Part shown: positions 5,922 to 36,380 of the stretch, in pieces
Layout of the letters: each line of letters opens with the position of its first letter
Numbering within the stretch: position 1 is the first letter of the stretch
From: a virus
Reading direction: 5' to 3' (one strand)
Virus record (IMG/VR): IMGVR_UViG_3300009506_000111
Span: 1 to 36,380 of that record
Length of the DNA: 36,380 bases
Position numbers and translations under genes: made by a program
The notes under the pieces: generated by a model
Told to the model about the DNA's origin: nothing
Seen by the model: only the letters and a program-made list of their open reading frames with translations
The model's database searches: none

Positions 5922-6182
5922 TCATCCGAGGACGGCGACGCGGTGGCCTCGCCCGGTCAGAGTCAGCGTGTACCCCTGGCGGGAGTGCGGGTCGCCGGAC
6001 AGTTCGATCAGGCCGGCCCGGACGCACCGCATCACGATGCGGTCGCCGAAGGCGTTGCTCCCGTGGGGGCCAACGGCAACGGCGAGGCCGTGCTTGCCGG
6101 TCATCGTCCCGCCCTTGGAGAGCAGGATCTTGCACGCCTGGATCATGCGGGGGCCGATGCGGTATGTCTTCGTCGTCGTCAT
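5922..6182 (-). CDS. Small winged-helix-like protein, reverse-oriented insertion (moron)
   Basis: 86 residues on the opposite strand to all surrounding head genes. The pattern MIQACKILLSKGG, LAVAVG, GDRIVMRCVRAGLIEL and YTLTLTGRGHRV resembles a winged helix-turn-helix: helices followed by a two-stranded wing. There is no Shine-Dalgarno. Instead a -10 box TACAGT lies 6 nt before ATG, which fits a leaderless message, and tandem TAGACA-type boxes lie further upstream. Leaderless repressor genes are known from phages (lambda cI from PRM). It is a candidate regulator; DNA binding is inferred. Confidence 0.7.
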   Translation of the reverse strand: MTTTKTYRIGPRMIQACKILLSKGGTMTGKHGLAVAVGPHGSNAFGDRIVMRCVRAGLIELSGDPHSRQGYTLTLTGRGHRVAVLG

Positions 6183-6188
6183 GAGACA

Positions 6189-6228
6189 ACTGTAGCGCGT
6201 TTACCTGCGCAGTGTCTACCCTTGTCGA
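6189..6228 (-). promoter_or_regulatory. Tandem-hexamer promoter/operator A (reverse strand)
   Basis: Read on the minus strand: TCGACA, N4, TAGACA, N18, TACAGT, N6, ATG of the gene ending at 6182. The second hexamer is at -35 spacing, and the first lies 10 bp further upstream. At the other sites of this family the second box lies inside the -35/-10 spacer instead. The site covers a possible GTG start of the rightward MuF gene at 6212. Confidence 0.65.
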
Positions 6229-7337: not shown

Positions 7338-7649
7338 TTACGCCGGAGGGGTGCGGGTCGGCCCGACTCCGGAGCACCGCGCATCCATCACCGAGATGAT
7401 CATCGGGCGGTCCGGATCGAACCCCTCCTTGTCGTGGAACCCCTGGACGATGCCGGCCAGGACGGTGTCGCGGCTCAGCGCCCACGCGGTGCAGGTCGCC
7501 TCGACGGCGTGGTTCGTTTCGATGTTGGACCACAGCGTGTCCATGCCGGTGCGGGTGCGCTCCGGCACCGTTGGACCCGAGGAGCAGGCGGCCAGGAGCA
7601 GAGCGCCGGAGGCAAGCGCGAGGGCGTCGCGTCCGATTCGTATCGTCAT
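7338..7649 (-). CDS. Phage-encoded lipoprotein, reverse-oriented (moron)
   Basis: 103 residues. The signal peptide has a basic start (MTIRIGRDA), a hydrophobic core and a lipobox LAAC with the lipidated Cys at residue 22, so the mature protein should be anchored to the outer face of the host membrane. The mature part (about 82 residues) is unknown. It has two more Cys (ATCTAW, DARCSG) that could pair and a DRPMIISVMDARC strand. It has its own leaderless promoter and stops one base past the end of the MuF gene. Superinfection exclusion is a reasonable guess, not shown. Confidence 0.75.
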   Translation of the reverse strand: MTIRIGRDALALASGALLLAACSSGPTVPERTRTGMDTLWSNIETNHAVEATCTAWALSRDTVLAGIVQGFHDKEGFDPDRPMIISVMDARCSGVGPTRTPPA

Positions 7650-7655
7650 GCCTTA

Positions 7656-7685
7656 ACCGTAGGGCACATTGTCGACACTTGTCTA
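7656..7685 (-). promoter_or_regulatory. Tandem-hexamer leaderless promoter B (reverse strand)
   Basis: Minus strand: TAGACA, N4, TCGACA, N8, TACGGT, then TAAGGC and the ATG of the lipoprotein. The first hexamer is 18 bp from the -10 box. The transcription start should fall at or next to the ATG, so the message has no leader. Confidence 0.75.
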
Positions 7686-7786: not shown

Positions 7787-8515
7787 GTGAGCGAGACCAG
7801 CACCGAGGGTGGCCAGCAGGGCGGGACCGGCGGGACCGGTGGCTCCGAGGGCGACCAGCAGCAGACCCAGCAGCAGGGTGGACAGCAGCAGACATCGACG
7901 GGCCAGACCGGGCAGCAGGGCATCGCGAGCGAGGCCGGGCGCCTCGTGGAGCAGCAGCGCCAGCAGCAGGCCGAACAGCAGGGCGGCGCCGAGGGTGGGA
8001 TCGAGTCCCTCCCGGAGTGGGCGCAGAAGCTGATCCGGGACACTCGGAGCGAGGCCGCCAGCGCCCGAACCTCCGCCAAGGAGGCCGCGGCGAAGGAGGC
8101 GCGCGAGACCCTCCTCGCCGAGATCGGCAAGGCGCTCGGCCAGGAGGACAAGCTCGACCCCGAGAAGCTCAAGGCGGACCTGGAGTCCTCCTCGGCGAAG
8201 CACCGGGGTGCGCTCGTGGAGCTGGCGGTCGTGCGTGCCGCAGGCAAGGCGGGCGCCGACGTCGACGCGCTGCTCGACTCCCGCGCCTTCGTGGCGCGGC
8301 TGGACAAGCTCGACCCGTCGGCCGATGACTTCGCCGCCAAGGTGACGGAGGAGATCGCGGCTGCGGTCCGGGACAACCCGAAGCTGTCCGCAGGTCAGCC
8401 CGCTACCCGCTCCGGTGGGCAGGTGCAGGGCGGCGCCGGCGACAGTGGCGGGGAGGAGTCCTGGGAGTCCATGGAGAAGCGCGCCCGGGCCGGGCGTACC
8501 TCGCTGTTCGGCTGA
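7787..8515 (+). CDS. Capsid scaffolding protein
   Basis: 242 residues, GTG start preceded by GGGAGG. The N-terminal ~65 residues are a Gly/Gln-rich disordered stretch encoded by CAG-rich DNA. Then follow LPEWAQKLIRDTRSEA, a charged helix (AKEAAAKEARETL), the FVARLDKLDPSADDF segment and a basic C-terminal KRARAGRTSLFG. This layout and the position just before the major capsid gene are typical of phage scaffolds, in which the basic C-terminal helix binds the coat protein. Confidence 0.85.
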   Translation: MSETSTEGGQQGGTGGTGGSEGDQQQTQQQGGQQQTSTGQTGQQGIASEAGRLVEQQRQQQAEQQGGAEGGIESLPEWAQKLIRDTRSEAASARTSAKEAAAKEARETLLAEIGKALGQEDKLDPEKLKADLESSSAKHRGALVELAVVRAAGKAGADVDALLDSRAFVARLDKLDPSADDFAAKVTEEIAAAVRDNPKLSAGQPATRSGGQVQGGAGDSGGEESWESMEKRARAGRTSLFG

Positions 8516-18937: not shown

Positions 18938-18952
18938 CTAGCGACGATTGCA

Positions 18953-19007
18953 GACTTCAGTGTCGTAGACTCACCCCTGTGAAGCCGTCCCCCCGCGGCG
19001 ATCGGCC
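18953..19007 (+). repeat. 55-bp tandem repeat, unit 1
   Basis: First of two identical, directly adjacent 55-bp units between the last tail-tip gene and the lysis genes. Each holds GTGTCGTAGACT, a possible -10 box TAGACT, and after 7 nt a GTG that opens a tiny frame (VKPSPRGDRP...). Noncoding function is more likely. Confidence 0.9.
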
Positions 19008-19062
19008 GACTTCAGTGTCGTAGACTCACCCCTGTGAAGCCGTCCCCCCGCGGCGATCGGCC
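19008..19062 (+). repeat. 55-bp tandem repeat, unit 2
   Basis: Exact copy of 18953-19007. It ends at the base before the GTG of the first lysis-region gene, so unit 2 forms the whole leader of that gene. The duplication may have doubled a promoter-like element; no good -35 hexamer is visible in either unit. Confidence 0.9.
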
Positions 19063-23134: not shown

Positions 23135-23515
23135 TCAGGTCCGCGCGAGCCGGCAACCGCCCGATGTGCGGTGCCCTCTCAGTAGCTCGACGGCGCGTGC
23201 GGTCGAGGTGACCGGCGCTGAGGAGAAGTCCCTGCCGGAGCACACCGACCGGTAGACCCGGGGTGACGTCTCGTGCACCGAGCCGAGCCGGGTGGCCGAG
23301 TCGTCCGCGTCGCGCACGTCGAGGTGCCGCAGGATCACACCGCCGACGACGCGCTGCTCCTGCACGATCTGCGAGGTGCGCATCGCCAGCAGCAGCCGGG
23401 CCAGCATCGCCGCAGCCCATAGCGGCATCAGTACCAGTGCGATCGCCTCGGCCAGCGCACGGCTGGGGCCAACACCCCGGCCGTGCCGCCCGGTGCCGCG
23501 CCTCAGCGCAGCCAC
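23135..23515 (-). CDS. Small membrane protein of unknown function
   Basis: 126 residues if started at GTG 23515, which has GGAG 8 nt upstream and overlaps the previous gene end by 13 bp. ATG 23428 would give 97 residues without a ribosome site. One membrane helix lies near residues 22-45 (ALVLMPLWAAAMLARLLLAM region). A soluble tail has RHLDVRDADDSATRLGS and a Ser/Arg-rich end. It is the last gene of the leftward block before the shared terminator. Confidence 0.5.
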   Translation of the reverse strand: MAALRRGTGRHGRGVGPSRALAEAIALVLMPLWAAAMLARLLLAMRTSQIVQEQRVVGGVILRHLDVRDADDSATRLGSVHETSPRVYRSVCSGRDFSSAPVTSTARAVELLRGHRTSGGCRLART

Positions 23516-24177
23516 GGCGGGGTCTCCGGTCCGGGCTGCGGGGCCAGCGCAGCGGCCGGAGGAGCCGGCTGCTGCGGCTGCGCGGGGGCCTGCTGCGCGA
23601 AGGGGTTCGGCGCGGCCGTCGGGGTCTGCTGCTGCGACTGCGCGGGGAACGGCGAGGCGGCCGCAGGGGTGGCCTGTACCGGGTCGGGCCGGTAGTACGC
23701 GGCGTCGCCCTGCTGCATCCGCCAGGCGAACCACTGCTTGACCTGCGCGAGCTGTTCGGGGGTCGGGTCGGACAGCCGCCACATCGGGTTGCCCTTGACC
23801 GTCTCGGTCGCGAGCACGCCGACGATGCCCGGGAAGCCCGGCACGCCGACCTTGTCGCCCAGCCGGCTGACGAACCACTTCTGCGACATGAACATGTCGC
23901 GCATGACCTGCCCGGGGCCGATCGGCGGGGTGAGCGGCTTCTGCCCGCCCATCTTGTCGATGATCGCCGGGATCGGCGCGCCGTCCAGGAACGTGACGTC
24001 GCAGGTCAGCCGGGTGTGCGGGGTGGGCTGCTTCTCGGTCACCACGTTGTCCTGGCGGCCGCGGGGGAGGATGTGCAGGAGCCTGCCGCTGAGCTGCGCG
24101 AGGGATGGGTACCCACCGCCACCGCTGCTGGGGAGCTGGCTCGGCAGGGTGAAGTCGTCGTAGGTCATCTGCGTCAT
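23503..24177 (-). CDS. Possible ssDNA-binding (OB-fold-like) accessory protein
   Basis: 224 residues from ATG 24177 with GAAAGG upstream; the next ATG is 9 nt downstream. The body has YPSLAQLSGRLLHILPRG, LTCDVTFLDGAPIPAII, MRDMFMSQKWFVSRLGD and IVGVLATETVKGNPMW. This strand pattern resembles proteins annotated as ssDNA-binding or replication accessory in actinophages. The last ~65 residues are a disordered Pro/Gln/Ala-rich tail ending PPWLR, comparable in layout to SSB tails but not acidic. Context with nuclease and helicase supports a DNA-metabolism role. Confidence 0.5.
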   Translation of the reverse strand: MTQMTYDDFTLPSQLPSSGGGGYPSLAQLSGRLLHILPRGRQDNVVTEKQPTPHTRLTCDVTFLDGAPIPAIIDKMGGQKPLTPPIGPGQVMRDMFMSQKWFVSRLGDKVGVPGFPGIVGVLATETVKGNPMWRLSDPTPEQLAQVKQWFAWRMQQGDAAYYRPDPVQATPAAASPFPAQSQQQTPTAAPNPFAQQAPAQPQQPAPPAAALAPQPGPETPPWLR

Positions 24178-24224
24178 GTCGGGGGACCTTTCGGGGTCGG
24201 GTTGTCGGTTGGGGTGTGGTCCCG

Positions 24225-24260
24225 CCGCACCGGAGGCCCTTCCCCGAGCCCCCGGTGCGG
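24225..24260 (-). promoter_or_regulatory. Leader hairpin of the ssDNA-binding candidate
   Basis: A 9-bp perfect stem (CCGCACCGG with CCGGTGCGG, 18-nt loop) falls in the ~85-nt leader between promoter C and ATG 24177. It could be an attenuator or a translational element; no riboswitch family is recognised. Confidence 0.45.
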
Positions 24261-24267
24261 ACACTGC

Positions 24268-24297
24268 ATCGTACTCGTATCTGTCTACAGTTGTCTA
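24268..24297 (-). promoter_or_regulatory. Tandem-hexamer promoter C (reverse strand)
   Basis: Minus strand: TAGACA, N4, TAGACA, N8, TACGAT. Both hexamers are exact. It overlaps the last codon of the upstream gene. It should give a leadered mRNA, unlike sites A, B, E and F. Confidence 0.72.
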
Positions 24298-24567
24298 CGA
24301 CGTCCACCATGACGACAGCGTCTCGTCGTACTGCCGCTGCGCATCGTCTCCGCACTGCTCGCAGACCGCCTCACCTTCGTGCATCCGAATCGTGTCCCCT
24401 TCGAAGATGGTGGACCCACATGAGGCGCAGTTGCTGTCCCATCCTGCGGTGAACGGCCGAGACGGTGCGGATCCGAGGGGCGCTGGTTTCGGCTCGCCGC
24501 GGTGATCCGGACACGCGCACTGATCGGGAAGGAGGTCAGTGCGCGTGCACCGCTCGACCTTGATCAT
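24295..24567 (-). CDS. Zinc-ribbon protein
   Basis: 90 residues, ATG overlapping the nuclease stop by 4 bp (24564-24567). Cys pairs CASC (47-50) and CEQC (69-72) around TIFEGDTIRMHEGE form a zinc ribbon. Two further Cys lie in CTRTDLLPDQCAC (7-19). Such small ribbons occur beside actinophage nucleases and may bind DNA or a protein partner. The acidic, Trp-ending C-terminus is TLSSWWTS. Confidence 0.7.
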   Translation of the reverse strand: MIKVERCTRTDLLPDQCACPDHRGEPKPAPLGSAPSRPFTAGWDSNCASCGSTIFEGDTIRMHEGEAVCEQCGDDAQRQYDETLSSWWTS

Positions 24568-26165
24568 TTCCCCGAGCTCGCGACCGGGATGCCCTGCTCG
24601 ACCCGGGCCCGCGCCGCCGCGCTGTGCTCCTCGCCCCACTCACCCTGGCGCGACTCCCACAGCTTGCCGATCGCCTCCTGCGAGTCTGCCTGAGCGATGA
24701 GGTCGAGCAGGGTCAGGGTCTTCGGCACGTTCATCCACGGCGGCGGGGAGGGCTGCGCGGGGGGCTCGGTGGGCGCCTGGGCCTCACGTGCAAGCCGGTT
24801 GAACGTGTCCTCGGACAGGCGGTTGCACTGCTGGTGCACCGCCGGGCCGCCCTGGAAGATCGGGACCCATCCCCGCGGGTCCGGGCAGGTGCAGTGCAGT
24901 CCGGACTGCAGCGCCTCGGCGACGGTCGTCGGTCGTGGTGGTAGGTCCGGCGCCCCGGCGTCGTCCACAGGCTGTGCATCGGGCTGTGGAGACGGGGTCG
25001 AGGCGCCACCCTTCGGTTCGGGGCAGTGCTTCGCCGTGTGCCCGGGCCGGCGGCAGTTGCTGCAGGTGCGCCGCTTGCGCCCGGACGGGGAGCGCTCTGC
25101 CTCGGCGCGGGAAGCGTCGGCGTGAGCCATAGCATCGGACTCGCTCTGACCGGGCAGGGGCTGGCCGGGCTCCGTGGTGAAGGTCTCGACCGACTCGGCT
25201 ACTGTGGGCTGCGCAGGCGCCAGGGGCCGGTCGGACGGCTGTTCCCCGCGGGTCGATACGGGCCCGCCCGGCGCCTGCCCCTCGCCGCGCACCGGCGCAC
25301 CGACGGGCAGCATCTGTGTGCTCGCGCTGCGCCGTCCGTGCAGCTTCACCGCGATGAGCATGTCGACCCATCCCGTGATCAGGTCGATCTCGTAGAGCTG
25401 TGCCACCCCGTCGCGCACGTGCAGTACGTACCCCGCCGTCCGGTCGATCTCCGGGGGCGTGGAGAACGAGCGGGTGGCCGGGTCGTAGATGTGCGTGCAG
25501 TTCGCGTAGCCCGCGAGCTGTGCGCCGATGATCTGTCGCTTCGCCGCCTCGGCAACCTTGCCCGTCTTGAGATCCCCGACCCGCAGCTTCACCTCGCCGT
25601 CCGGCAGGGTGACCTCCCACAGCGCGTCGAGCCGGCCCGCGTACCCGAGGGTGGCGTGCACGACGACCTGCTCGACGGCGCGCACGCGGATGCCCGCCTG
25701 TCGCAGGCAGGCCAGCGCCAGCGCGAGGTCGGACCCGAGCTGCTCGTCGGCAGGCAGGGCGATCTCCTCGCCCGAGGTGGCCCGCTCCAGCACGCGGTGC
25801 AGGGCCCGGCCGTAGATGCTGGCCGCATCGAGCCCGGCCGCCGCCTTCGCCCCGCGCAGCACCTCGTCCTGCGTCGCCTTGCTCTCCGGGTCGGAGGCCA
25901 GCAGCGCGCGCAGGTCGGCGCGCCGACCGAGCCCGCGCATCACCTCGCGCTCGGTCCAGATCCGCAACCCCTCGTTGCTGGTGAGCGATCCGGTCAGGGT
26001 CGTCACCCGGGTCCAGGGGCGCAGGTCCTCCGGGTCCTCGCCGGGCACGGGGAGCAGGTAGCGTCGGTGCCTGTCGTAGCTGACCCCCGGCACGTACCCG
26101 GGGTCGTCCTCACCGCCGGATCCGCCGGTCTGCGAGGGGAGCAGGAACTCCGTCGATTCGGTCAC
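24564..26165 (-). CDS. Cas4/RecB-family PD-(D/E)XK nuclease fused to a CCHC zinc knuckle
   Basis: 533 residues, GTG 26165 with GAGAGG upstream. The N-terminal ~275 residues have the RecB/Cas4 active site: GRALH (119-123), GRLD (177-180), GDLKTGK (197-203) and QLAGY (216-220). The central ~100 residues are a disordered Pro/Ser-rich linker. Then C-SN-C-RRPG-H-TAKH-C (368-381) is a retroviral-type CX2CX4HX4C knuckle. A second Cys cluster HCTCPDP, a conserved VHQQCNRLS and a C-terminal helical domain (LDLIAQADSQEAIGKLW) follow. No [4Fe-4S] four-Cys set is evident in the nuclease part. It probably trims DNA ends for recombination or replication. Confidence 0.85.
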   Translation of the reverse strand: MTESTEFLLPSQTGGSGGEDDPGYVPGVSYDRHRRYLLPVPGEDPEDLRPWTRVTTLTGSLTSNEGLRIWTEREVMRGLGRRADLRALLASDPESKATQDEVLRGAKAAAGLDAASIYGRALHRVLERATSGEEIALPADEQLGSDLALALACLRQAGIRVRAVEQVVVHATLGYAGRLDALWEVTLPDGEVKLRVGDLKTGKVAEAAKRQIIGAQLAGYANCTHIYDPATRSFSTPPEIDRTAGYVLHVRDGVAQLYEIDLITGWVDMLIAVKLHGRRSASTQMLPVGAPVRGEGQAPGGPVSTRGEQPSDRPLAPAQPTVAESVETFTTEPGQPLPGQSESDAMAHADASRAEAERSPSGRKRRTCSNCRRPGHTAKHCPEPKGGASTPSPQPDAQPVDDAGAPDLPPRPTTVAEALQSGLHCTCPDPRGWVPIFQGGPAVHQQCNRLSEDTFNRLAREAQAPTEPPAQPSPPPWMNVPKTLTLLDLIAQADSQEAIGKLWESRQGEWGEEHSAAARARVEQGIPVASSGK

Positions 26166-26176
26166 TGTGAGCCCTC

Positions 26177-26206
26177 TCTGTTCTGCACGTTGTCCATGAT
26201 TGTCTA
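26177..26206 (-). promoter_or_regulatory. Tandem-hexamer promoter/operator D (reverse strand)
   Basis: Minus strand: TAGACA, N4, TGGACA, N8, AACAGA. The hexamer pair is clear but the -10 box at the family spacing is poor, so this may act more as an operator. It precedes the nuclease gene by 11 nt and lies in the 49-bp gap after the helicase gene. Confidence 0.6.
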
Positions 26207-26214
26207 CCGTAGCA

Positions 26215-27894
26215 CTACCCGCCGAGCGCCCGTGTCGCCAGGGCGGTGCTGATCGCGTCGCTCACCTGTCCCTTCGTCGGCCGCTCGGGCAGGCGTGCGC
26301 CGAGCGAGTGCGCGTAGGCGAGCGCGTTCGGGCGGGGTCCGTCGCGCCGCCACGGCGCCTTGCGCCCGGCGCCGATCGCCCCGAGCTCGCGCTGCAGGCG
26401 ACCCGCGTAGCCTTCCGCCTGATCCATCGCCCACTCCAGCGTCATGCCCGCGGCCAGGCACTGCGCGCTCCCTGCCGGGGCCTTGCTGCCGGTGACCCCG
26501 ATCATCCACAGCCCCGGAGCGTCCGCGTCCGGCCACAGGAACACGAGCCAGTCGCCGACCGGCAGGAACCACGTCCCGGCCGGGGTCTGCAGCCACACCG
26601 AGACCCGATCGCCGAACAGGTCCACGTCACGGATCACGCGCCGCCCGGTGACCGGATCGAGTTCTCCGGCCATCACCGCGGCCCGGCGCTCCGCCTCGTC
26701 GAGCATCTCGTCAGCAGCGGTGAGCAGGGACTGCCCGTCCTTCGGCTCGACCTTCGTCGTGACGCTCAGATCCGCCATCGTGGCCAGGCGGTGATTGCCG
26801 GTGGCGCCGACGACGTCGATCAGCAGCGCGTCGTGCTTCGGGGCGAACCCGGGGACCGGCAGATGCCAGGGGCGCAGCACCCGCCCGGCCATCTGCACGT
26901 ACAGCGGAGCTGACTGCGTCGGCCGGGCGATCACCGCGGCGCTTGCCTGCGGCATGTCGAACCCCTCGGTGAGCACCATCACCGAGGACAGCATCTGCAG
27001 CCGGCCGCGCCGGTACGCTTCGTAGACCCGGGCCCGCTCGTCCGGTGGGGTGCTGCCGGTGATGACCGCGGTCGGCACACCAACCGCTGCATAGGCGGCG
27101 GCTCCGGCGTGAGCGGTGTCCACCGTCGGCCAGAACGTGATGCCCTGCCGGTCCGATGCCAGCTCGACGTAGGACTGCGCCACGTGCTCCGGCGCGTCCG
27201 CCGCCTGCAGCTCCTCGCCGAGGGCTCGGTCGCCGTAGTCTCCCGCGGTGCGCCTGACCTGCCGCAGGTCGAGCCCGGCAAGCTCCACCCGCTTGCCGAC
27301 CACGTCGACAAGCCAGCCGTGCCGGATGCCGTGCAGGATGTCCCGCTGGAGCACGACCTCCTGCCAGATGTCCCCGAGGTGTGCGTCGTCGGAGCGGGCC
27401 AGCGTCGCGGAGAATCCGGCCACCGGCACTCCGGGCGAGGAGAAGGCGCCGAAGTGCCGTAGTACGGACACGTAGGTCGGGGCCGTGGCGTGGTGCGCCT
27501 CGTCGACCACGATCAGTCCTACGTCGCGGATCCGTTCCCGGCGCCGCGGGTTGGCCAGCGTCTGCACCGAGGCCACCACGACCCGGGCATCGGTCTCGTC
27601 CCAGATGTTCTGCACCCGGCCGACCGACGTCGTCGGGTCGACGCTGTGGGTCTTCGCCACCGCCTGCACCGCGAGCTCGTCACGATGTACCAGCACCAGC
27701 ATCCGGCCGCGCTCACCGAGCACCGGATCGCGCAGAGAGGGGTGCGCGAACACCACCGTCTTGCCGGCGCCGGTCGGCAGCACCACGGCCGCGCGGGAAG
27801 ACACCCCCGTTCCGGTACCGCGTTCTCGTCCGGCCCACGCGGCGTGCAGTCCGGCGATCGCGTCGCGCTGGTAGTCGCGCAGCTCGATGCTCAC
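26215..27894 (-). CDS. Superfamily 2 DNA/RNA helicase
   Basis: 559 residues from GTG 27894, chosen for its GTGA overlap with the upstream stop. Motifs in order: Q-like ELRDYQRDAI, Walker A LPTGAGKT (about 39-46), II VDEAHH (130-135), III FSATL (about 161), IV-V region ITGSTPPDE and VLTEGFDMP, VI QMAGRVLRP (334-342). A C-terminal ~170-residue extension contains TWFLPVGDWLVFLWP and NALAYAHSLGARLP, common in actinophage DEAH helicases. It probably works with the downstream nuclease in recombination or replication. Confidence 0.9.
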   Translation of the reverse strand: MSIELRDYQRDAIAGLHAAWAGRERGTGTGVSSRAAVVLPTGAGKTVVFAHPSLRDPVLGERGRMLVLVHRDELAVQAVAKTHSVDPTTSVGRVQNIWDETDARVVVASVQTLANPRRRERIRDVGLIVVDEAHHATAPTYVSVLRHFGAFSSPGVPVAGFSATLARSDDAHLGDIWQEVVLQRDILHGIRHGWLVDVVGKRVELAGLDLRQVRRTAGDYGDRALGEELQAADAPEHVAQSYVELASDRQGITFWPTVDTAHAGAAAYAAVGVPTAVITGSTPPDERARVYEAYRRGRLQMLSSVMVLTEGFDMPQASAAVIARPTQSAPLYVQMAGRVLRPWHLPVPGFAPKHDALLIDVVGATGNHRLATMADLSVTTKVEPKDGQSLLTAADEMLDEAERRAAVMAGELDPVTGRRVIRDVDLFGDRVSVWLQTPAGTWFLPVGDWLVFLWPDADAPGLWMIGVTGSKAPAGSAQCLAAGMTLEWAMDQAEGYAGRLQRELGAIGAGRKAPWRRDGPRPNALAYAHSLGARLPERPTKGQVSDAISTALATRALGG

Positions 27895-28157
27895 AGCACC
27901 CCCAGCAACCGCAGGGCCCACCGCCCGATGAGCACGAGCGAGGTGACCATCAGGAGCGCTGACACCGCGAACCCGGCGAACACGCCGACGCGCTCACCCG
28001 CCCGGTACGCCGGACTGCGCGGGGCGACGCGGGCGGGAGCGGGCGGGGCGCACTCGGCGCACACGCAGAACAGGCCACCACCGAGGTGCACGAGTCGGGT
28101 CGCCGGGCGCACGAGGCAGGACTCGCACGGACCGAAGATGTTATCGAGCCAGTTCAT
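27891..28157 (-). CDS. Small zinc-binding membrane protein
   Basis: 88 residues. N-terminal Cys pairs CESC (11-14) and CVCAEC (31-36) look like a zinc site. A Pro/Arg linker follows, then one membrane helix at about 57-80 (VGVFAGFAVSALLMVTSLVL) and a short basic end. The ribosome site GAGTGAGG is upstream of ATG 28157. It overlaps the helicase start by 4 bp, so translation is coupled. Function unknown. Confidence 0.65.
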   Translation of the reverse strand: MNWLDNIFGPCESCLVRPATRLVHLGGGLFCVCAECAPPAPARVAPRSPAYRAGERVGVFAGFAVSALLMVTSLVLIGRWALRLLGVL

Positions 28158-28196: not shown

Positions 28197-28712
28197 TCAC
28201 GTGACTGCCACCTGACGACGCCTGCGAATTCCGATCAGGACGGATGCCAGGACTACACCGTAAGTCTTGCCGAGGACTTGACCGGGCATGAATGCGAATG
28301 ACCCGAACGCGAGTTGTAGAAACACGGCTGAGTCAAGCAGTGCCCCGATGATTCCGCCGACGAGGACAGCCAGGGACCAGCGCGGGGTGATCCATGTGAA
28401 CAGCGCAAAGTCAGCGAGTTCACTGATTGCGAAGGCTGCGGCGGAGGCGGTTGCGATCCGGGGGTCGGCGATGGCGTACGAGAGGACGATCCCGACGGCG
28501 AGCCAGGCGAGGGCGATCCGCTTGCCGGCGGCCCACTGTAGCCAGTCCCGTGCCACCAGAGCTGGTCCGATCAGGAACACGCCAGCCGGGGCGACTGTGC
28601 CAAGGCCGGCCGGGATGACCCCCCATCGAGCGATGGCGTAGTTCGCGCCGACGATGCAGCTGACGTAAACCACAGCAGCGGCTAGGCTTGAGACAATCCT
28701 GATGCGACTCAC
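28197..28712 (-). CDS. YhhQ/VUT-family transporter, probable 7-deazaguanine precursor importer
   Basis: 171 residues with about five or six membrane helices: [52 protein letters not shown], the helix with the family signature [32 protein letters not shown] and the last one near [12 protein letters not shown]. YhhQ (QueT-like VUT family) imports preQ0/preQ1-type bases. Its GTG overlaps the stop of the DpdA-like gene (GTGA), so both are made together. GC is about 58 percent, below the genome. Confidence 0.8.
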
Positions 28713-29464
28713 GAGAGAATTCCGTTCAGAAGGTTGTCACGCCACTTCAGTGCCCATTGCATACAATTTCCGCAATTCTTGTGAGTACAACTAACTGACG
28801 CTCGGTTACTGCCCCTGCCGTTCCATCGTCCATTTCTCGACCAGGCAAGGGAATCGGCAGAAGCTAGATACTGCGCGCCGTCCCTAAGTCCAAGGGCCTT
28901 TACTCCGTAACCATGAAGCTGCAACCCTAGACCGCTCAACCGATAGAACAGATCGGTTATCTCCGGAGTCCCCTGTCGGCGACATACCGACCCAACTCCA
29001 ACCAGCGGGAGACTGGCAAGGTCGACACTTTCCCGTGCGTACATGTCTGCGCAACGGAAGTAGTCGTCAGTAGAGAACCCCTGAAGTACCGGAATGAATC
29101 CGAGCGAATCATCAAGCTCCATTAAGTCAAGGTAGTTACGAACCGTCAGCTTCTGGTGGTCCTCGACACCGAGTCCCGTTTTTCGCAGAACGCTAGGTTC
29201 ACACATCCAATCCTGCGGGCTCGCCCACTCCATCATTCCTATTTCCCGATCGTAGCGACGCACAGCCGCTACGTAATCACGTACCGATGTCTGCCAACCC
29301 CCGAACTGTCCCACCTCAGTAAAACCGCCGGAATCAAGGGCCCAGTTGGTCGTTGCCCGCCGCCACGATCCTTGACGCTTCAGTCGCCGATGCGAAATGA
29401 ACAACGGAACATCATTTAGGAGATGAAGCCATGAGATTTCGTGTGTCCCGAGATAGAACCTCAC
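28709..29464 (-). CDS. dpdA: DpdA-like 7-deazaguanine DNA transglycosylase
   Basis: 251 residues from GTG 29464 with GGGAG 7 nt upstream. TGT-fold (tRNA-guanine transglycosylase) protein: LDSGGFTEV with Asp44, [10 protein letters not shown] (81-90), VLQG (126-129), LVGVGSV (154-160), GVKALGL (187-193) and SADSLAWS with Asp204, a candidate nucleophile. A C-terminal zinc-site Cys cluster is C226, C231, C234. It lacks the tRNA-binding size of Tgt (about 370 residues) and matches the shorter phage DpdA set, which exchange guanine in DNA for a 7-deazaguanine. GC is about 50 percent against about 70 percent around it, so it was probably acquired. Confidence 0.82.
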
Positions 29465-29559
29465 CGCAGGACTCCCATCAATCGGGTCCCGATCCACTGT
29501 GTGTAAGCAGGCGGCAGTGCGTCGCGCACGCCGAGGTGATCGGTGGACCCTACGGTCAC
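29461..29559 (-). CDS. 32-residue peptide like the C-terminus of a cytosine-5 DNA methyltransferase
   Basis: GTG overlaps the previous stop and TGA overlaps the dpdA start, each as GTGA, so the frame fills the whole gap between the two genes. The product contains VRDALPPAYTQWIGTRLMGV. The R(D/E)A(I/L/V)PPAYTxxIG pattern is familiar to me from the C-terminal helix of Dcm-type C5 methyltransferases. No catalytic domain is present upstream. It could be a gene remnant, or a small protein kept for its own use. The similarity is from memory and needs a profile search. Confidence 0.55.
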   Translation of the reverse strand: MTVGSTDHLGVRDALPPAYTQWIGTRLMGVLR

Positions 29560-29897
29560 GACAGCACCGCTTTCGGGTCCGCCAACACATCGAAGGCTCG
29601 CTTCATGGTGATGCGGGAGTCACTCCCGCGGGCCCAGGGAGCTCGTGACACACTGAGGATCAGGGACCAGCTCTTGCCGCCGATAATCGAGATGAACACG
29701 TGCCGGTCATAGGTCTCGCCGGCCCACAGCGCAAAGCGACCGTGGATGCCCGGATTGCGCGCCCAGTCAGGCGTCGGCAGGTCACGCTCGGTGTAGCGGA
29801 TCACGTACCCGTGAGCCTCGGGAACCCGTACCCAGATTCCGGAGTCGAGCGCGGTCTGAATCGCTTCCTTCAGTCGTCGCTGCGTCATCGTTGTCAT
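29556..29897 (-). CDS. 113-residue protein of unknown function
   Basis: Start ATG 29897 with GGGAG 7 nt upstream; the upstream frame has no better site. It reads as an N-terminal helix MTQRRLKEAIQTALDSG, then mixed alpha/beta (WVRVPEAHGYVIRYTERD, GRFALWAGETYDRHVFISII, KSWSLILSVSRAPW) ending in a helix (RAFDVLADPKAVL). I do not recognise the family. It heads the dpdA operon after a short upstream frame. Confidence 0.6.
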   Translation of the reverse strand: MTTMTQRRLKEAIQTALDSGIWVRVPEAHGYVIRYTERDLPTPDWARNPGIHGRFALWAGETYDRHVFISIIGGKSWSLILSVSRAPWARGSDSRITMKRAFDVLADPKAVLS

Positions 29898-29947: not shown

Positions 29948-29967
29948 GAGCCCTTCGTCGTGGAGGG

Positions 29968-30010
29968 GAGCACCGCGCGGGTTGGGGGGTCGCGTCACCG
30001 CGCGGTGCTC
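29968..30010. promoter_or_regulatory. Perfect 13-bp hairpin in the divergent region upstream of the dpdA operon
   Basis: GAGCACCGCGCGG and CCGCGCGGTGCTC pair perfectly around a 17-nt loop containing a run of six G. It lies in the leader of the leftward operon, between site E and the 17-residue frame, and could attenuate it. I could not match it to a preQ1 riboswitch, which is much smaller and A-rich in its tail. Confidence 0.55.
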
Positions 30011-30033
30011 CGTGCCACCTCACGGTACACGGG

Positions 30034-30064
30034 TAGACATCCATAGACAACCCCCTGATAGAGT
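30034..30064 (+). promoter_or_regulatory. Tandem-hexamer leaderless promoter E
   Basis: TAGACA, N4, TAGACA, N9, TAGAGT, then GTCCTC and ATG 30071. The -10 box is 6 nt from the start codon, so the mRNA should be leaderless. On the other strand the same DNA offers TTGTCT, N17, TACCGT for the leftward operon, so it may be a divergent control region. Confidence 0.75.
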
Positions 30065-30070
30065 GTCCTC

Positions 30071-30331
30071 ATGACGAGCGAGCGCAAGCGGAACAAGCGG
30101 AGGCGCGCGGTGCTGGACGCGCTCGCGGCCGCACCCGAGTACCTGACCCGGCGACAGGCCGCGCATGTCGCGGGGACCACCGAGCGCACCATCGACCGGT
30201 GGCGCGACGACGGGATCCTGCGCACCTACAGGCACCGGGGATCCTCGCGGGGACACCTCGTGATGGTCTCGCGGGATGAGCTACGCGCGCACCTGATCCC
30301 GCAGCCGGCGCCGGAGAGCGTTTCGCGGTGA
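30071..30331 (+). CDS. Helix-turn-helix regulator (excisionase/MerR-like)
   Basis: 86 residues. A very basic N-terminus (SERKRNKRRRAV) precedes EYLTRRQAAHVAGTTERTID (23-42), RWRDDGILRTYRHRG and RDELRAHL, the HTH_17 excisionase-type pattern with a one-turn wing. It is first gene of the rightward early block and lies just behind promoter E, so it may regulate that promoter and perhaps the other sites of the family. No integrase is present to make it a true excisionase. Confidence 0.8.
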   Translation: MTSERKRNKRRRAVLDALAAAPEYLTRRQAAHVAGTTERTIDRWRDDGILRTYRHRGSSRGHLVMVSRDELRAHLIPQPAPESVSR

Positions 30332-32117: not shown

Positions 32118-32160
32118 CACTGAGGCCCGGCGGATCTGATGATCCGACCGGGCCTCAGTG
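32118..32160 (+). terminator. Strong 19-bp hairpin terminator before the replication gene
   Basis: CACTGAGGCCCGG (32118-32130) pairs with CCGGGCCTCAGTG (32148-32160), and inside it CGGATC pairs with GATCCG around a TGAT loop. One A is bulged. No U-tract follows. It ends the early chain, or it reduces readthrough into the primase-helicase gene. Confidence 0.85.
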
Positions 32161-32174
32161 TCAAGGGCTGACAC
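32158..32174. promoter_or_regulatory. Dyad GTGTCA-N5-TGACAC upstream of the replication gene
   Basis: A perfect 6-bp inverted repeat with a 5-bp spacer, adjacent to the terminator and 29 bp before ATG 32203. It resembles a dimer operator. No reliable promoter hexamers could be set around it. Confidence 0.45.
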
Positions 32175-32202
32175 GTCCACGACAACGCGAAAGCAGGATA
32201 GC

Positions 32203-34800
32203 ATGTCCGATTCGTCCCCGCAGTCCGCCACGCAGGACATGATCGACCAGGGCGCGATCGGCGCCTATCTGGACCTGATCTACCCGCCCGGGTGGGACTG
32301 GCGGGGAGAGATCGGGGCGGCGCACTCGCTGCCCGGCGGCACGGGGATGCCCTCCGCGCACTGGCCGCGGGAGCGCGCGGTGTACGAGGCCGTCGAGTTC
32401 GCCCGCTCGGCGCAGCGCCGGGATGCGCCAGGGGTGTACCTGCGCTGCAGCACGGTGCGGCCCGACATCGAGCCGGGAAGGCGCGGAGGAGCACAGGACA
32501 GCGTCGAGCTGCCGGGACTGTGGGCCGACCTCGACATCGCCGGACCTGGACATCGGCACGACCCGGGCAAGCACGGCGGGCTCGTGCTGCCGCCGGATGC
32601 CGCGGGAGCCCTGGCCATCGTCACGGCCTCGGGCCTGCCGGCCCCGAGCGCCGTCGTGCACTCCGGGGGCGGGCTCTACGCATGGTGGCTGTTCGACCGG
32701 CGGGTCGAGCTGGCGCAGGAGGGACACGCGGTCTGGTCGCGGATCAGCGAGGCGTGGCAGGCGCGACTTGCCGAGGGAGCGAGCTCGATCGGACTGCACT
32801 ACGGGACCGGGGTCGGCAACCTCGACCGGGTGCTCGGGCTCGTCGGCACACCGAACCGCAAGGTGCCCGGCCTGCCGACCCCGCGCCGCCTGCTCCACGC
32901 CGACGGACCGCGGTACGCCCCTGAGGTGCTGGCCGAGGCGTCCGGACACGCGACAGCCCCCGGGCCGGTCCAAGCCGGGTCGGGGGCTGTCGCCACGGGG
33001 CAGTGGCAGGTGGTTCCTCACGGATCGCAGCTGCCGTCCGAGCCGCTCGTGGCGAGCAGAGTGCGCCCCGCTGGGCACGTGTCGCCACTCGACGACCTGG
33101 AGACGCGGCACACGTGGGCGCAGATCCTCACCCCGCTCGGGTGGGAGCTGGTCAAGGGCGTGGAGGGACAGGGGGAGTGCCACTGGCGCAGGCCGGGTGC
33201 CTCGCACCCGCTGAGCGCGACTACCGGCCGCGAGGCGGACCGGGACCGGATGTGGGTGTTCAGTGATGCTGCCGGGCTGCCGGTCAATGAGCCCTTGACC
33301 AAGGGGTTCGTCTTCGCGGCGCTCTATCACGGGGGGGACATGCGGGCAGCTGCCGGCGCGGTGAAGGCCATGGGGTACGGCTCGACCACCCATGGAGAGG
33401 GGGACGGTGTCGGGGGTCAGGACGCCACCACCAACCCGGGTAGGCGCCTGGAGCTGACCGCGGCCTCGGGGATGGGCGGGCCGAGGGCGACGCGGTGGCT
33501 GTGGGCCGAGGGGTCGGCCGAGTGGCTACCCCTCGGCGGGCTGTGCCTGCTGGGAGGGCGCGAGGGGAGGGGCAAGAGCACGTGGGTGGTTCGGCTGATC
33601 GCGGAGCTGACCCGCGGGACGCTGGCCGGGGACCTGCACGGCACGCCGCACAGCGCGGTGATCGCCGCCACCGAGGACGACTGGCGGGCGACGATCATCC
33701 CCCGGCTCATGGCTGCGGGGGCGGACCTGGACCGGGTGTACCGGATCGACGCCGTGGAGCCGGACCGGGTCACCGGCGTCAGCCTGCCGGAGGACCTGTG
33801 GCCGCTGCGGGCGCTGCTGGCCGAGCGGACGGACGTGGCGCTGCTCGTGCTCGACCCGATCATGAGCGTCATCCCGGCCCGGGCGGACTCGCACAAGGAC
33901 CACGAGGTCCGCAGGTCGCTGGAGCCGATCTCCGCGCTCGCGCACGCGCACGGGGTCACGGTGCTCGGGCTGATCCACGACAACAAGAGCACGGGCACCG
34001 ACCTGAGCACCCGGCTCATGGGAAGCCGCGCCTTCGTCGCCGTGGCTCGCGCGGCGCTGGTGTGCACCGAGGAGCAGGACACCCCCGACGAGGGCTCCGT
34101 GGATGCACGGGGGGCCGATCCGGTGCGCCCGAGCACCGATGCCTCACCTCTGCCGGCCGGCGAGGTCGAGCGCCCGCGGGTGTTCCTGCTCGGGCAGATC
34201 AAGTCGAACCTCGGGCCCAAGGTCGGCGTCTCGATCCGGTACGTGATCGGGGCCGAGGTTGTGGCGCACGACGAGGAGCTCGACAAGGACGTGCGGGGCA
34301 GCTACGTGCACCGCATCGGCCGGCGCACCGCGGGCGTGGAGGAGATCGTGCGAGAGGCGGAGCGGGTCCGCCCGTCCGGGGACGGTGCGGTGACCCTGCG
34401 GTCGGCGCAGGAGCGGATCCTCGCGCTGCTCGACGGCGGGGAGAGGGGCAGCAGGTCCGTCAAGGACGCGCTGATCGACGGCGGGTTCACCCTGTCGACG
34501 ATCGAGCGCGCGGCGCGGGAAATGGTACGAGACGGACGTATCCGAATTGTCCGTAATGGGAGAGAGACCTCGTGGTCCCCCACCACACCCCCTGAAGGTG
34601 AAGGGGGTAATGACGGCCTTAAGGCGATGAAGGATGAAGGGGGACGCTTCGCTGAAGCGAGCTCTTTCGTTGAAGCTGATTGCCTTCAACCTTCACCTTC
34701 ACCGACCCCCCGCGCGCGCGCGCGCGAGGTGAAGGCAATCGACTCCGGGTGCGCCTGTCCCGAGGGTCAGCACTGGCCGTGGTGCGCAGGTGCGGCGTGA
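32203..34800 (+). CDS. Replicative primase-polymerase/helicase fusion
   Basis: 865 residues. ATG 32203 is taken over GTG 32158, which lies inside the hairpin region. The N-terminal AEP-like domain has GLWADLDIAG (106-115, DxD metal site) and VVHSGGGLYAWWLF (151-164). A central winged or linker region follows. The C-terminal RecA-like ATPase has LLGGREGRGKST (Walker A, about 450) and LLVLDPIMSV (Walker B, about 547), then LGLIHDNKSTGTD. The last ~150 residues include a helix-turn-helix like region (STIERAAREMVRDGRI) and a low-complexity tail. It would prime and unwind at the origin. Confidence 0.85.
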   Translation: MSDSSPQSATQDMIDQGAIGAYLDLIYPPGWDWRGEIGAAHSLPGGTGMPSAHWPRERAVYEAVEFARSAQRRDAPGVYLRCSTVRPDIEPGRRGGAQDSVELPGLWADLDIAGPGHRHDPGKHGGLVLPPDAAGALAIVTASGLPAPSAVVHSGGGLYAWWLFDRRVELAQEGHAVWSRISEAWQARLAEGASSIGLHYGTGVGNLDRVLGLVGTPNRKVPGLPTPRRLLHADGPRYAPEVLAEASGHATAPGPVQAGSGAVATGQWQVVPHGSQLPSEPLVASRVRPAGHVSPLDDLETRHTWAQILTPLGWELVKGVEGQGECHWRRPGASHPLSATTGREADRDRMWVFSDAAGLPVNEPLTKGFVFAALYHGGDMRAAAGAVKAMGYGSTTHGEGDGVGGQDATTNPGRRLELTAASGMGGPRATRWLWAEGSAEWLPLGGLCLLGGREGRGKSTWVVRLIAELTRGTLAGDLHGTPHSAVIAATEDDWRATIIPRLMAAGADLDRVYRIDAVEPDRVTGVSLPEDLWPLRALLAERTDVALLVLDPIMSVIPARADSHKDHEVRRSLEPISALAHAHGVTVLGLIHDNKSTGTDLSTRLMGSRAFVAVARAALVCTEEQDTPDEGSVDARGADPVRPSTDASPLPAGEVERPRVFLLGQIKSNLGPKVGVSIRYVIGAEVVAHDEELDKDVRGSYVHRIGRRTAGVEEIVREAERVRPSGDGAVTLRSAQERILALLDGGERGSRSVKDALIDGGFTLSTIERAAREMVRDGRIRIVRNGRETSWSPTTPPEGEGGNDGLKAMKDEGGRFAEASSFVEADCLQPSPSPTPRARAREVKAIDSGCACPEGQHWPWCAGAA
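34592..34740 (+). repeat. Iteron-like TGAAGG repeats within the 3' end of the replication gene
   Basis: CTGAAGGTGAAGGGGG (34592-34607) and ATGAAGGATGAAGGGGG (34627-34643) are direct repeats. They are followed by GCTGAAGC and GTTGAAGC, then the inverse CCTTCAACCTTCACCTTCACC (34683-34703), and AGGTGAAGGC (34727-34736). GATTGCCTTCA (34678-34688) and TGAAGGCAATC (34730-34740) are a perfect 11-bp inverted pair around an (CG)8 tract at 34711-34726. AT content rises here. This is the best origin candidate in the window. Confidence 0.55.
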
Positions 34801-35279
34801 CAGCGCCCGGCGCTGCTCCTCGCCACCCCCTGCCGCTGGTCGTGTGGGTGCCGGGGCGGGCGCGAACGAAGGGTAGCCTCAGGCCGCAGGGGCGTACCGC
34901 GGACGGACGGGTCCGGCTCGTGGAGCAGGTGCGTCTGTCCGGCTCTTGGCGCGCCACGGTGGTTGAGGTGGTCCTGCGGCACCTCGGGGCCTCGTTCGGC
35001 CCCGATGGGCCCGTAGTGGGCTGGGAGGCGTACGCCGGGCCCGTGTCCGTGCAGCTCGCGGTGCGCTTCCCCCGACCCGACTCGGCGGACCGGCCGTACC
35101 CGACCGCGCGCACCGACGGCGACCTGGACAAGCTGCAACGCAACGTGGGTGACGCGCTGCAGGACGCCCGGGTGATCCTCGACGACGCGCAGATCGTGGA
35201 GTGGCACGCGGTCAAGTCCTGGGCGCCTCCGCTGAGCGCCGGCATCTGGCTCGTGGTGACCCCTGCCGTGGGAGGATGA
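34797..35279 (+). CDS. rusA: RusA-family Holliday junction resolvase
   Basis: 160 residues from GTG 34797, which overlaps the replication gene stop as GTGA. It has the RusA pattern: GRARTKGSLRP near the start, then TDGDLDKLQRNVGDALQDA (106-124) and VILDDAQIVEWHAVKSW. The conserved acidic residues Asp107/109/111, Asp119 and Asp129/130 bind metal. It resolves branched DNA before packaging. Confidence 0.88.
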   Translation: MTAPGAAPRHPLPLVVWVPGRARTKGSLRPQGRTADGRVRLVEQVRLSGSWRATVVEVVLRHLGASFGPDGPVVGWEAYAGPVSVQLAVRFPRPDSADRPYPTARTDGDLDKLQRNVGDALQDARVILDDAQIVEWHAVKSWAPPLSAGIWLVVTPAVGG

Positions 35280-35284
35280 GGCGC

Positions 35285-35860
35285 ATGGACGAGGAGGACG
35301 TTTCCGGTCGGCGGAAGGAAAGAAAGCTGCAGGTCGTAGCCTCGCCGGGCGACGTTCGCAACCGCCCGGGGCGACCGGGTAGAAACCTCACGGGGCGTCC
35401 GCCGACCCCCGAGGCGAAGGTCGAGGAGATCCGGGCCCTGCTCGCCAACCCATCCCTGAGTCGTAATGAGATCGCGCGACGCACCGGGGTGAGCGGCTAT
35501 GTGGTGAGCCGGGTTGCCGCGGAGATCGGGCGCGCCTTCCGGCCGGCGGCCGAGGTCTCGGACACCCGGGCGGCTTCAGCGGCGCGTTCGGTCAATGCGA
35601 CCGGGGACCGCAAGGCCCTGGCCGAGAACCTTGCCGGTGCGGTGGCCGAGATCATGGGCCAGCTCCGGGAGCTCCTCCCCGCCAAGGACACGCGCGCCAC
35701 TGGGGACCTGTCCCGTGCTGCCGCCGCGCTGGTACGGGCCGCGGTGGACCTGGACCGGCTGGAGATCGACCGGCAGCGCGCGGCGAGTGCGGCGCGCGGC
35801 GGGTCCGAGGTCGACTCGTGGCTCGATGAGATGACTGGCACCGAAGGTGGACAACAGTAG
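35285..35860 (+). CDS. Probable terminase small subunit
   Basis: 191 residues. ATG 35285 is chosen because GGAGG lies 9 nt upstream; ATG 35276 directly abuts it. A basic N-terminus (SGRRKERK, NRPGRPGRN) precedes an HTH at 58-84 (LSRNEIARRTGVSGYVVSRV). A long helical region with coiled-coil character follows (AVAEIMGQLRELLP, ALVRAAVDLDRLEIDRQRAA). HTH plus coiled coil upstream of terL is the small-terminase layout, although terL lies about 4 kb further on, beyond the glycan genes. Confidence 0.6.
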   Translation: MDEEDVSGRRKERKLQVVASPGDVRNRPGRPGRNLTGRPPTPEAKVEEIRALLANPSLSRNEIARRTGVSGYVVSRVAAEIGRAFRPAAEVSDTRAASAARSVNATGDRKALAENLAGAVAEIMGQLRELLPAKDTRATGDLSRAAAALVRAAVDLDRLEIDRQRAASAARGGSEVDSWLDEMTGTEGGQQ

Positions 35861-35877
35861 ACATGCTGCACTAGGGT
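35848..35877 (+). promoter_or_regulatory. Tandem-hexamer leaderless promoter F
   Basis: TGGACA, N4, TAGACA, N8, TAGGGT, then CGAGTC and ATG 35884. The site overlaps the end of the preceding gene. It is the likely promoter of the 70-residue protein, pentapeptide, methyltransferase, glycosyltransferase and terminase genes. Confidence 0.78.
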
Positions 35878-35883
35878 CGAGTC

Positions 35884-36096
35884 ATGGGAATCTTCAGTCT
35901 CGGGAGCAGCAACGGTCGCGGCCTGCTCGGACACGGCGCGGCACGCGCGGAGGCGAGCCTGCGGGGTGCCGAGCGTGGACCCGGAGGTGCGACGGTGGCG
36001 GCGCAGCAGGTGGACGTCGATGCCCGGCGAGGTGTCGTGGACTGGACCGTCACGCCGTACGGCGTGGAGCCGGTAGAGCCAGGAGGTGAGCGGTGA
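35884..36096 (+). CDS. 70-residue Gly/Arg-rich protein of unknown function
   Basis: ATG with no ribosome site and the -10 box of promoter F 6 nt upstream, so a leaderless gene. The N-terminal part is [17 protein letters not shown], followed by [18 protein letters not shown] and [19 protein letters not shown]. It stops at TGA overlapping the GTG of the pentapeptide gene as GTGA. No family is recognised. Confidence 0.6.
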
Positions 36097-36163
36097 TCAC
36101 GCGTGATGAAGCGTTGGAGGCGATCAGGTCCGACGTTCGACCACTCCCCGACCTGAGCGGGGC
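36067..36163 (+). repeat. 97-bp direct repeat, copy 2
   Basis: Partner of 108-204, four mismatches. Here the same bases read as the last codons of the 70-residue protein and then as the pentapeptide ribosome site and N-terminus. Confidence 0.9.
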
Positions 36164-36380
36164 GGACCTGAGCGGGGCGGACCTGCGCGGGGCGAACCTG
36201 CGCTGGGCGGACCTGCGCTGGGCGGACCTGCGCGGGGCGGACCTGCGCGGGGCGAACCTGAGTGATGCGGACCTGCGCGGGGCGTACCTGCGCGGGGCGT
36301 ACCTGCGCGGGGCGGACCTGCGCGGGGCGGACCTGCGCGGGGCGAACCTGCGCGGGGCGGACCTGCGCGGGGCGGACCTG
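36093..36380 (+). CDS. Pentapeptide-repeat protein, N-terminal part (runs off the window end)
   Basis: GTG 36093 follows AGGAGGTGAGC and overlaps the previous stop. The first 19 residues ([19 protein letters not shown]) are non-repeat. From residue 20 on the protein is [19 protein letters not shown] type repeats, about 15 before the edge and more after the join. Every fifth residue is Leu with Ala two before it, the face of a four-sided beta-helix. The last codon ends exactly at 36380 and the frame continues at position 1, which yields 134 residues in total. Confidence 0.85.

Follow-up and report, generated by a model that had tools for sequence, protein, structure and literature searches.

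The stretch of DNA analysed here, called the window below, is the IMG/VR virus record IMGVR_UViG_3300009506_000111 (36,380 bases, 71% G+C). It contains six sites, A to F, made of two tandem hexamers. The sites and the genes served by them or lying near them are listed in order of position:

5922..6182, minus strand: gene under site A, encoding an 86-aa protein without known family
6189..6228, minus strand: site A, TCGACA-AGGG-TAGACA, second unit as -35, 18 bp, -10 TACAGT, leaderless
7338..7649, minus strand: gene under site B, encoding a 103-aa protein with a lipobox-like LAACSSG in its translation
7656..7685, minus strand: site B, TAGACA-AGTG-TCGACA, 8 bp, -10 TACGGT, leaderless
23503..24264, minus strand: gene downstream of site C, whose start may be the ATG at 24177
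24268..24297, minus strand: site C, TAGACA-ACTG-TAGACA, 8 bp, -10 TACGAT, following the exonuclease gene
24564..26165, minus strand: exonuclease gene (PHROG 466), downstream of site D
26191..26206, minus strand: site D, TAGACA-ATCA-TGGACA, between the helicase and exonuclease genes, no clear -10
26215..27921, minus strand: helicase gene, the query for retrieving relatives
30034..30064, plus strand: site E, TAGACA-TCCA-TAGACA, 9 bp, -10 TAGAGT, serving the HTH gene as a leaderless promoter
30071..30331, plus strand: gene for an 86-aa winged-HTH candidate regulator (HTH_17, Xis/BldC-like), at the head of a rightward operon
32158..34800, plus strand: primase/polymerase gene, farther down the operon that begins with the HTH gene
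35848..35877, plus strand: site F, TGGACA-ACAG-TAGACA, 8 bp, -10 TAGGGT, leaderless
35884..36096, plus strand: gene under site F, encoding a 70-aa protein

A first-pass annotation had reported hexamers 10 bp apart at six loci, and a pattern scan found all six where it had placed them. The chance occurrence of the tandem was checked as well: TVGACA-N4-TVGACA has six matches in the window, none in 100 dinucleotide shuffles, and the reversed-pattern control gave no match in the window. All eight copies of TAGACA in the window are inside the six tandem sites, and TTGACA, which is a better -35 than TAGACA, is present as a single copy. With a matrix built from the six sites, their own scores ranged from 22.7 to 27.8 and the next best score was 15.7, in coding DNA at 7879, i.e. 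a gap of seven score units between the sites and the rest of the genome.

As had been claimed, the ATG at four sites (A, B, E and F) is preceded, at exactly 6 nt, by a TANNNT box. The spacer between the -35 unit and the -10 is 18 bp at B and F, 19 bp at E and, counted from the second hexamer, 18 bp at A; at C the TACGAT box is 18 bp from the first hexamer. At D no convincing -10 is seen (AACAGA). Leaderless starts are found at four of the six sites, A, B, E and F. Site D has an RBS-like GAGAGGG 5' of its GTG. Site C is not leaderless in the TANNNT-N6-ATG layout, since the nearest start, the GTG at 24264, is only 3 nt past the box; judging from the sequence, the in-frame ATG at 24177, behind a purine-rich stretch, is more likely to be the real start. 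Sites C and D are within the leftward helicase-exonuclease operon. A and B are inside the structural region (head genes), contrary to the idea that the sites lie in non-virion contexts only, yet both serve small genes on the opposite strand.

Other features of the window are recorded here for completeness. Just upstream of site E (29966-30012) there is an inverted repeat, GGAGCACCGCGCGG / CCGCGCGGTGCTCC, which could be a terminator or a second operator. Between structural genes, at 18938-19062, a 55-bp direct repeat with ACTTCAGTGTCGTAGACTCACCCCTGTGAAG holds an inverted repeat. A DpdA gene (28709-29590, minus strand, E 4e-91) adjoins the gene of a Vut_1 (PF02592) transporter-like protein (28197-28712, minus strand), and the two neighbours probably take part in 7-deazaguanine DNA modification; the low third-position G+C of dpdA (0.56) suggests a recent acquisition. 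A pentapeptide-repeat frame (GADL-type) at 36098-36380 is truncated at the record end.

The product of the gene at 30071 (86 aa, no additional domain) is a stand-alone MerR-like winged HTH protein without effector domain. It falls in PHROG 66 (excisionase/regulator) and matches Pfam HTH_17 with 23.7 bits, under the cut-off of 27. When its alignment with four counterparts was compared with the PDB by profile search, BldC (8.6e-06) and Pukovnik Xis (3.3e-05) were matched, and the best solved structures in a Foldseek search with its AlphaFold model (pLDDT 77) include those of Xis, BldC and RdfS, with modest E-values and 4j2n as top match. The identity to the four counterparts, all from IMG/VR, is only 18-35%. 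Used as single queries, the HTH protein and the primase retrieved no relatives from viral contigs, nor did the HTH protein from the phage collection; a nine-sequence HTH alignment was discarded as a search profile, the sequences being too diverse. Direct repeats spaced by roughly one helical turn are the binding sites of BldC, Xis and Apl (PMC5859096, PMC7498355), and RdfS oligomerises through its N-terminal helix (PMC11963761). An N-terminal helix is also seen in the 30071 model; by analogy it may be an RdfS-like oligomerisation element, which we give as a lead only.

The first-pass annotation had named two binders for the sites. The 30071 protein is the best candidate. The 5922 protein is a weak one: it has no PHROG or Pfam match, no homologue was found in the relatives compared, and its structure model (pLDDT 49) is uninformative. 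A MarR-like ORF at 35201 was also considered as a regulator and dropped, its weak matches being to terminase small subunit and invertase families.

Carried from the window, with its six sites, to relatives, the motif scan showed that tandem sites recur there. The first viral pattern scan gave mostly chance matches with single sites and was rejected. A scan using DNA only, for three GACA units at 10 bp and a leaderless start, gave ten matches, among which are G001, G002, G003 and G004; their full records have more sites at leaderless promoters. One locus with GACA repeats before an XRE-type gene (L030/G006), which has a TGTCGACA palindrome at a single place, was set aside. Arthrobacter phage Shambre1, reached via primase similarity, carries four copies of GGACA, in steps of 10 bp, ahead of the leaderless gp51, a MerR-like HTH_17 protein and primase neighbour. 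G001-G004 and Shambre1 have exactly one HTH_17 gene each, the domain being widespread (13 of 14 control genomes also carry it). GACA repeats are found in the promoter of the HTH_17 gene in G001, in G003 (where the second copy is degenerate) and in G004, with the units in opposite orientation in these three, and, 20 bp apart, in G002. G002 and G004, though retrieved by the motif, are syntenic with the window (terminase, portal, MuF, helicase and exonuclease in common); in G004 sites overlap the ends of the helicase and exonuclease genes, corresponding to D and C, and G002 has one site after the exonuclease gene.

When all 256 tetramers were tested, GACA had the strongest 10-bp excess in the window, G001, G004, Shambre1 and Yavru, and was not the strongest in SV1, phiSAJS1 or MargaretKali. 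Leaderless promoters with a GACA pair near the -10 were tabulated: their first unit is at -35, and 8 bp (7-9) separate the end of the second from the -10, with spacers of mostly 18, sometimes 19 bp. This regularity comes in part from the search pattern and the range of the script, many listed sites not being pattern-selected, and the sites outside the search pattern mostly have the same 18-bp spacer and 8-bp distance to the -10. Two promoters depart from this, with the second unit as the -35: that of site A and the one at 2864 in G004. The HTH proteins of G002 and G004 matched only themselves when used as queries, and the G001 operator had no match among deposited phages.

Eighty loci were also retrieved by helicase alignment, without selection for the motif. 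Exact hexamer repeats in the 45 bp 5' of leaderless starts numbered 8 at shift 10 and 4 at shift 20, and 0-3 at every other shift between 6 and 19; of the eight, three belong to motif-known loci, and the peak, which falls to 5 without L260 and L261, includes two near duplicates. A shift-10 repeat is present in 11 of 36 regions upstream of HTH_17 genes, a minority of them, with an expectation of 3.2 calculated on random stretches taken from those loci. The unit varies with the phage: TGTC/GACA in L194 and L195 (in L194, four TGTC at exact 10-bp steps), CTGCCA in L235 and L236 (in L235, three copies at a leaderless HTH_17 gene) and GGGTAA in L252. Such divergence among related phages is the pattern expected of a reader that co-evolves with its sites.

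The seven motif-bearing records yielded no Phage_integrase (PF00589) or Resolvase (PF00239) domain, and 20 further records of the helicase lineage gave no PF00589 and one PF00239 (resolvase-type); all these records may be incomplete. The lack of a detected integrase speaks against an excisionase role, weakly given the possible incompleteness.

The sites and their geometry are direct observations, and so is the fact that in relatives they recur together with an HTH_17 gene. From these we infer binding, oligomerisation, repression and early timing by the 30071 protein, and we judge it probable that the six sites are the operators of one phage-encoded, autoregulated repressor of early genes, most likely this protein. 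Two or more protomers would lie head to tail on a single helix face, one per hexamer. At five sites the first hexamer is at the -35 with the second in the spacer, and at A the second is the -35. As the hexamers cover the -35 and the spacer, bound protein should exclude sigma-A RNA polymerase, and repression is the simplest outcome of occupying both units. On infection, the promoters would fire at once with the host polymerase, the HTH protein would be made leaderlessly from site E, and it would then switch off the operon that it heads as well as the five other units, i.e. an autoregulated early-gene shut-off.

Of the other ways to read the sites, the most serious is activation, in which the 30071 protein would help the polymerase across a slightly long spacer, in the manner of MerR or lambda cII. 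The 18-bp, sometimes 19-bp, spacers and the almost constant phasing between operator and -10 go in this direction, and MerR activators work on spacers of 19-20 bp (PMC5859096). However, the repeat unit is the -35 itself, and in G001 and G003 the promoter TTGACA-18-TACACT is so near the sigma-A consensus that an activator should not be needed; the reversed units at the HTH promoters of G001, G003 and G004 also fit repression better. We therefore regard activation as unlikely. That the hexamers are chance repeats, or a mere promoter feature without operator role, seems very improbable: the hexamer does look like a -35 element, but the shuffles gave none, the second copy cannot act as -35 for the same -10, the better -35 TTGACA occurs just once in the window, and the positions of the sites recur in relatives.

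A different reader, whether a regulator of the host or a second phage protein (for example the 5922 product), is a little less likely than activation. In its favour, site A serves the very gene that encodes the 5922 product, and TAGACA-N4-TAGACA with the same phasing is found at promoters of actinobacterial Phd/YefM-type antitoxin genes in several genera. These are leaderless promoters of chromosomal genes (L105, L111, L113, L117, L118, L126 and L129) in Nocardia, Agrococcus, Nesterenkonia, Mycolicibacter and a MAG, where the hexamers are conserved and the N4 varied. Two more groups of look-alikes were seen: Streptomyces GntR/UTRA-type genes (L104, L106, L107, L108, L124, L125 and L127), whose TAGACA-N4-TGGACA at a leaderless start is possibly autoregulatory, and, in cyanobacteria and in a MAG of the Burkholderiales, IS607-like transposase genes (MerR-like N-terminus; L115, L116 and L132) whose leaderless start is preceded by TAGACA-N4-TAGACA. 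The Pfam assignment of the look-alike regulators covers one Phd case and one GntR case. Because the layout recurs with unrelated regulators, host antitoxin genes included, it cannot by itself name the binder, and the link between the 30071 protein and the sites is drawn from co-occurrence, position and the binding mode of the class. Against a different reader, no Phd/YefM homologue was found in the phages, the motif-bearing relatives all have HTH_17 and no homologue of the 5922 product, and the unit sequence varies among related phages as for a phage-borne reader.

Repression by the 30071 protein would make this a repressor circuit encoded by viruses in which no integration genes are detectable, a reading that we consider probable. 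Whether it extends to a widespread actinophage lineage with no integrase detected, where an Xis/BldC-type protein would be the general early repressor and its 10-bp tandem operators, on the -35 of leaderless promoters, would diverge fast, is in our opinion evenly balanced. Little is understood of how early genes are timed in actinophages without known lysogeny system, and for several motifs repeated near the gene starts of these phages no reader has been assigned; here a motif is paired with a candidate one. It suggests that excisionase-like proteins of integrase-less phages serve as transcription regulators, and the unit sequences of the different phages are natural data on specificity change in the HTH_17 fold.

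The sites resemble several known systems in part. The stoperators of cluster A mycobacteriophages are near-identical sites dispersed over the genome. A dispersed, phage-wide operator overlapping -35 boxes is well supported here, but the analogy drawn with stoperators by the first-pass annotation fits less well: stoperators are asymmetric 13-bp sites of the immunity repressor and are not in tandem, whereas the sites here are tandem direct repeats with an Xis/BldC-type candidate and no integrase found. The cluster A reading was rejected on layout. Lambda cII likewise has short repeats in tandem, with a spacing of one turn, at the -35 region; it straddles the -35 and activates, and its fold and oligomer differ from those of the 30071 case. 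An SAS/ESAS reading was rejected on layout. In lytic Microbacterium phages of cluster EC, an 18-bp asymmetric motif recurs in front of non-structural genes, and also in front of a gene inserted behind MuF (PMC7302621); it is not a 10-bp tandem hexamer and is located 21-30 bp upstream of starts, upstream of the RBS.

The closest likenesses are with small HTH proteins. Phage 186 Apl, P2 Cox, lambda Xis and Pukovnik Xis are recombination directionality factors that can also regulate transcription, and Apl represses phage promoters by covering them (PMC7498355). The HTH class (winged, of HTH_17/Xis type) and the direct repeats one helical turn (10 bp) apart are shared; unlike in these systems, no partner integrase was found in the seven motif-bearing, possibly incomplete, records. 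Their array is single, between two promoters and at att, whereas here two-unit sites occur at six places and are merged with the -35 of mostly leaderless promoters. Streptomyces BldC, which jointly with Pukovnik Xis is the best sequence-profile and fold neighbour of the 30071 protein, is likewise a stand-alone winged HTH; it binds head to tail on direct repeats and controls several promoters (PMC5859096). Its units are 9-bp AATTNNNNC repeats in varying number, whereas those described here are TVGACA units with a GACA core at exactly 10 bp, locked to the -35. Judged against the open-access literature, the mode of repression proposed for the 30071 protein is most likely a new variation on the Apl/Cox/BldC mode.
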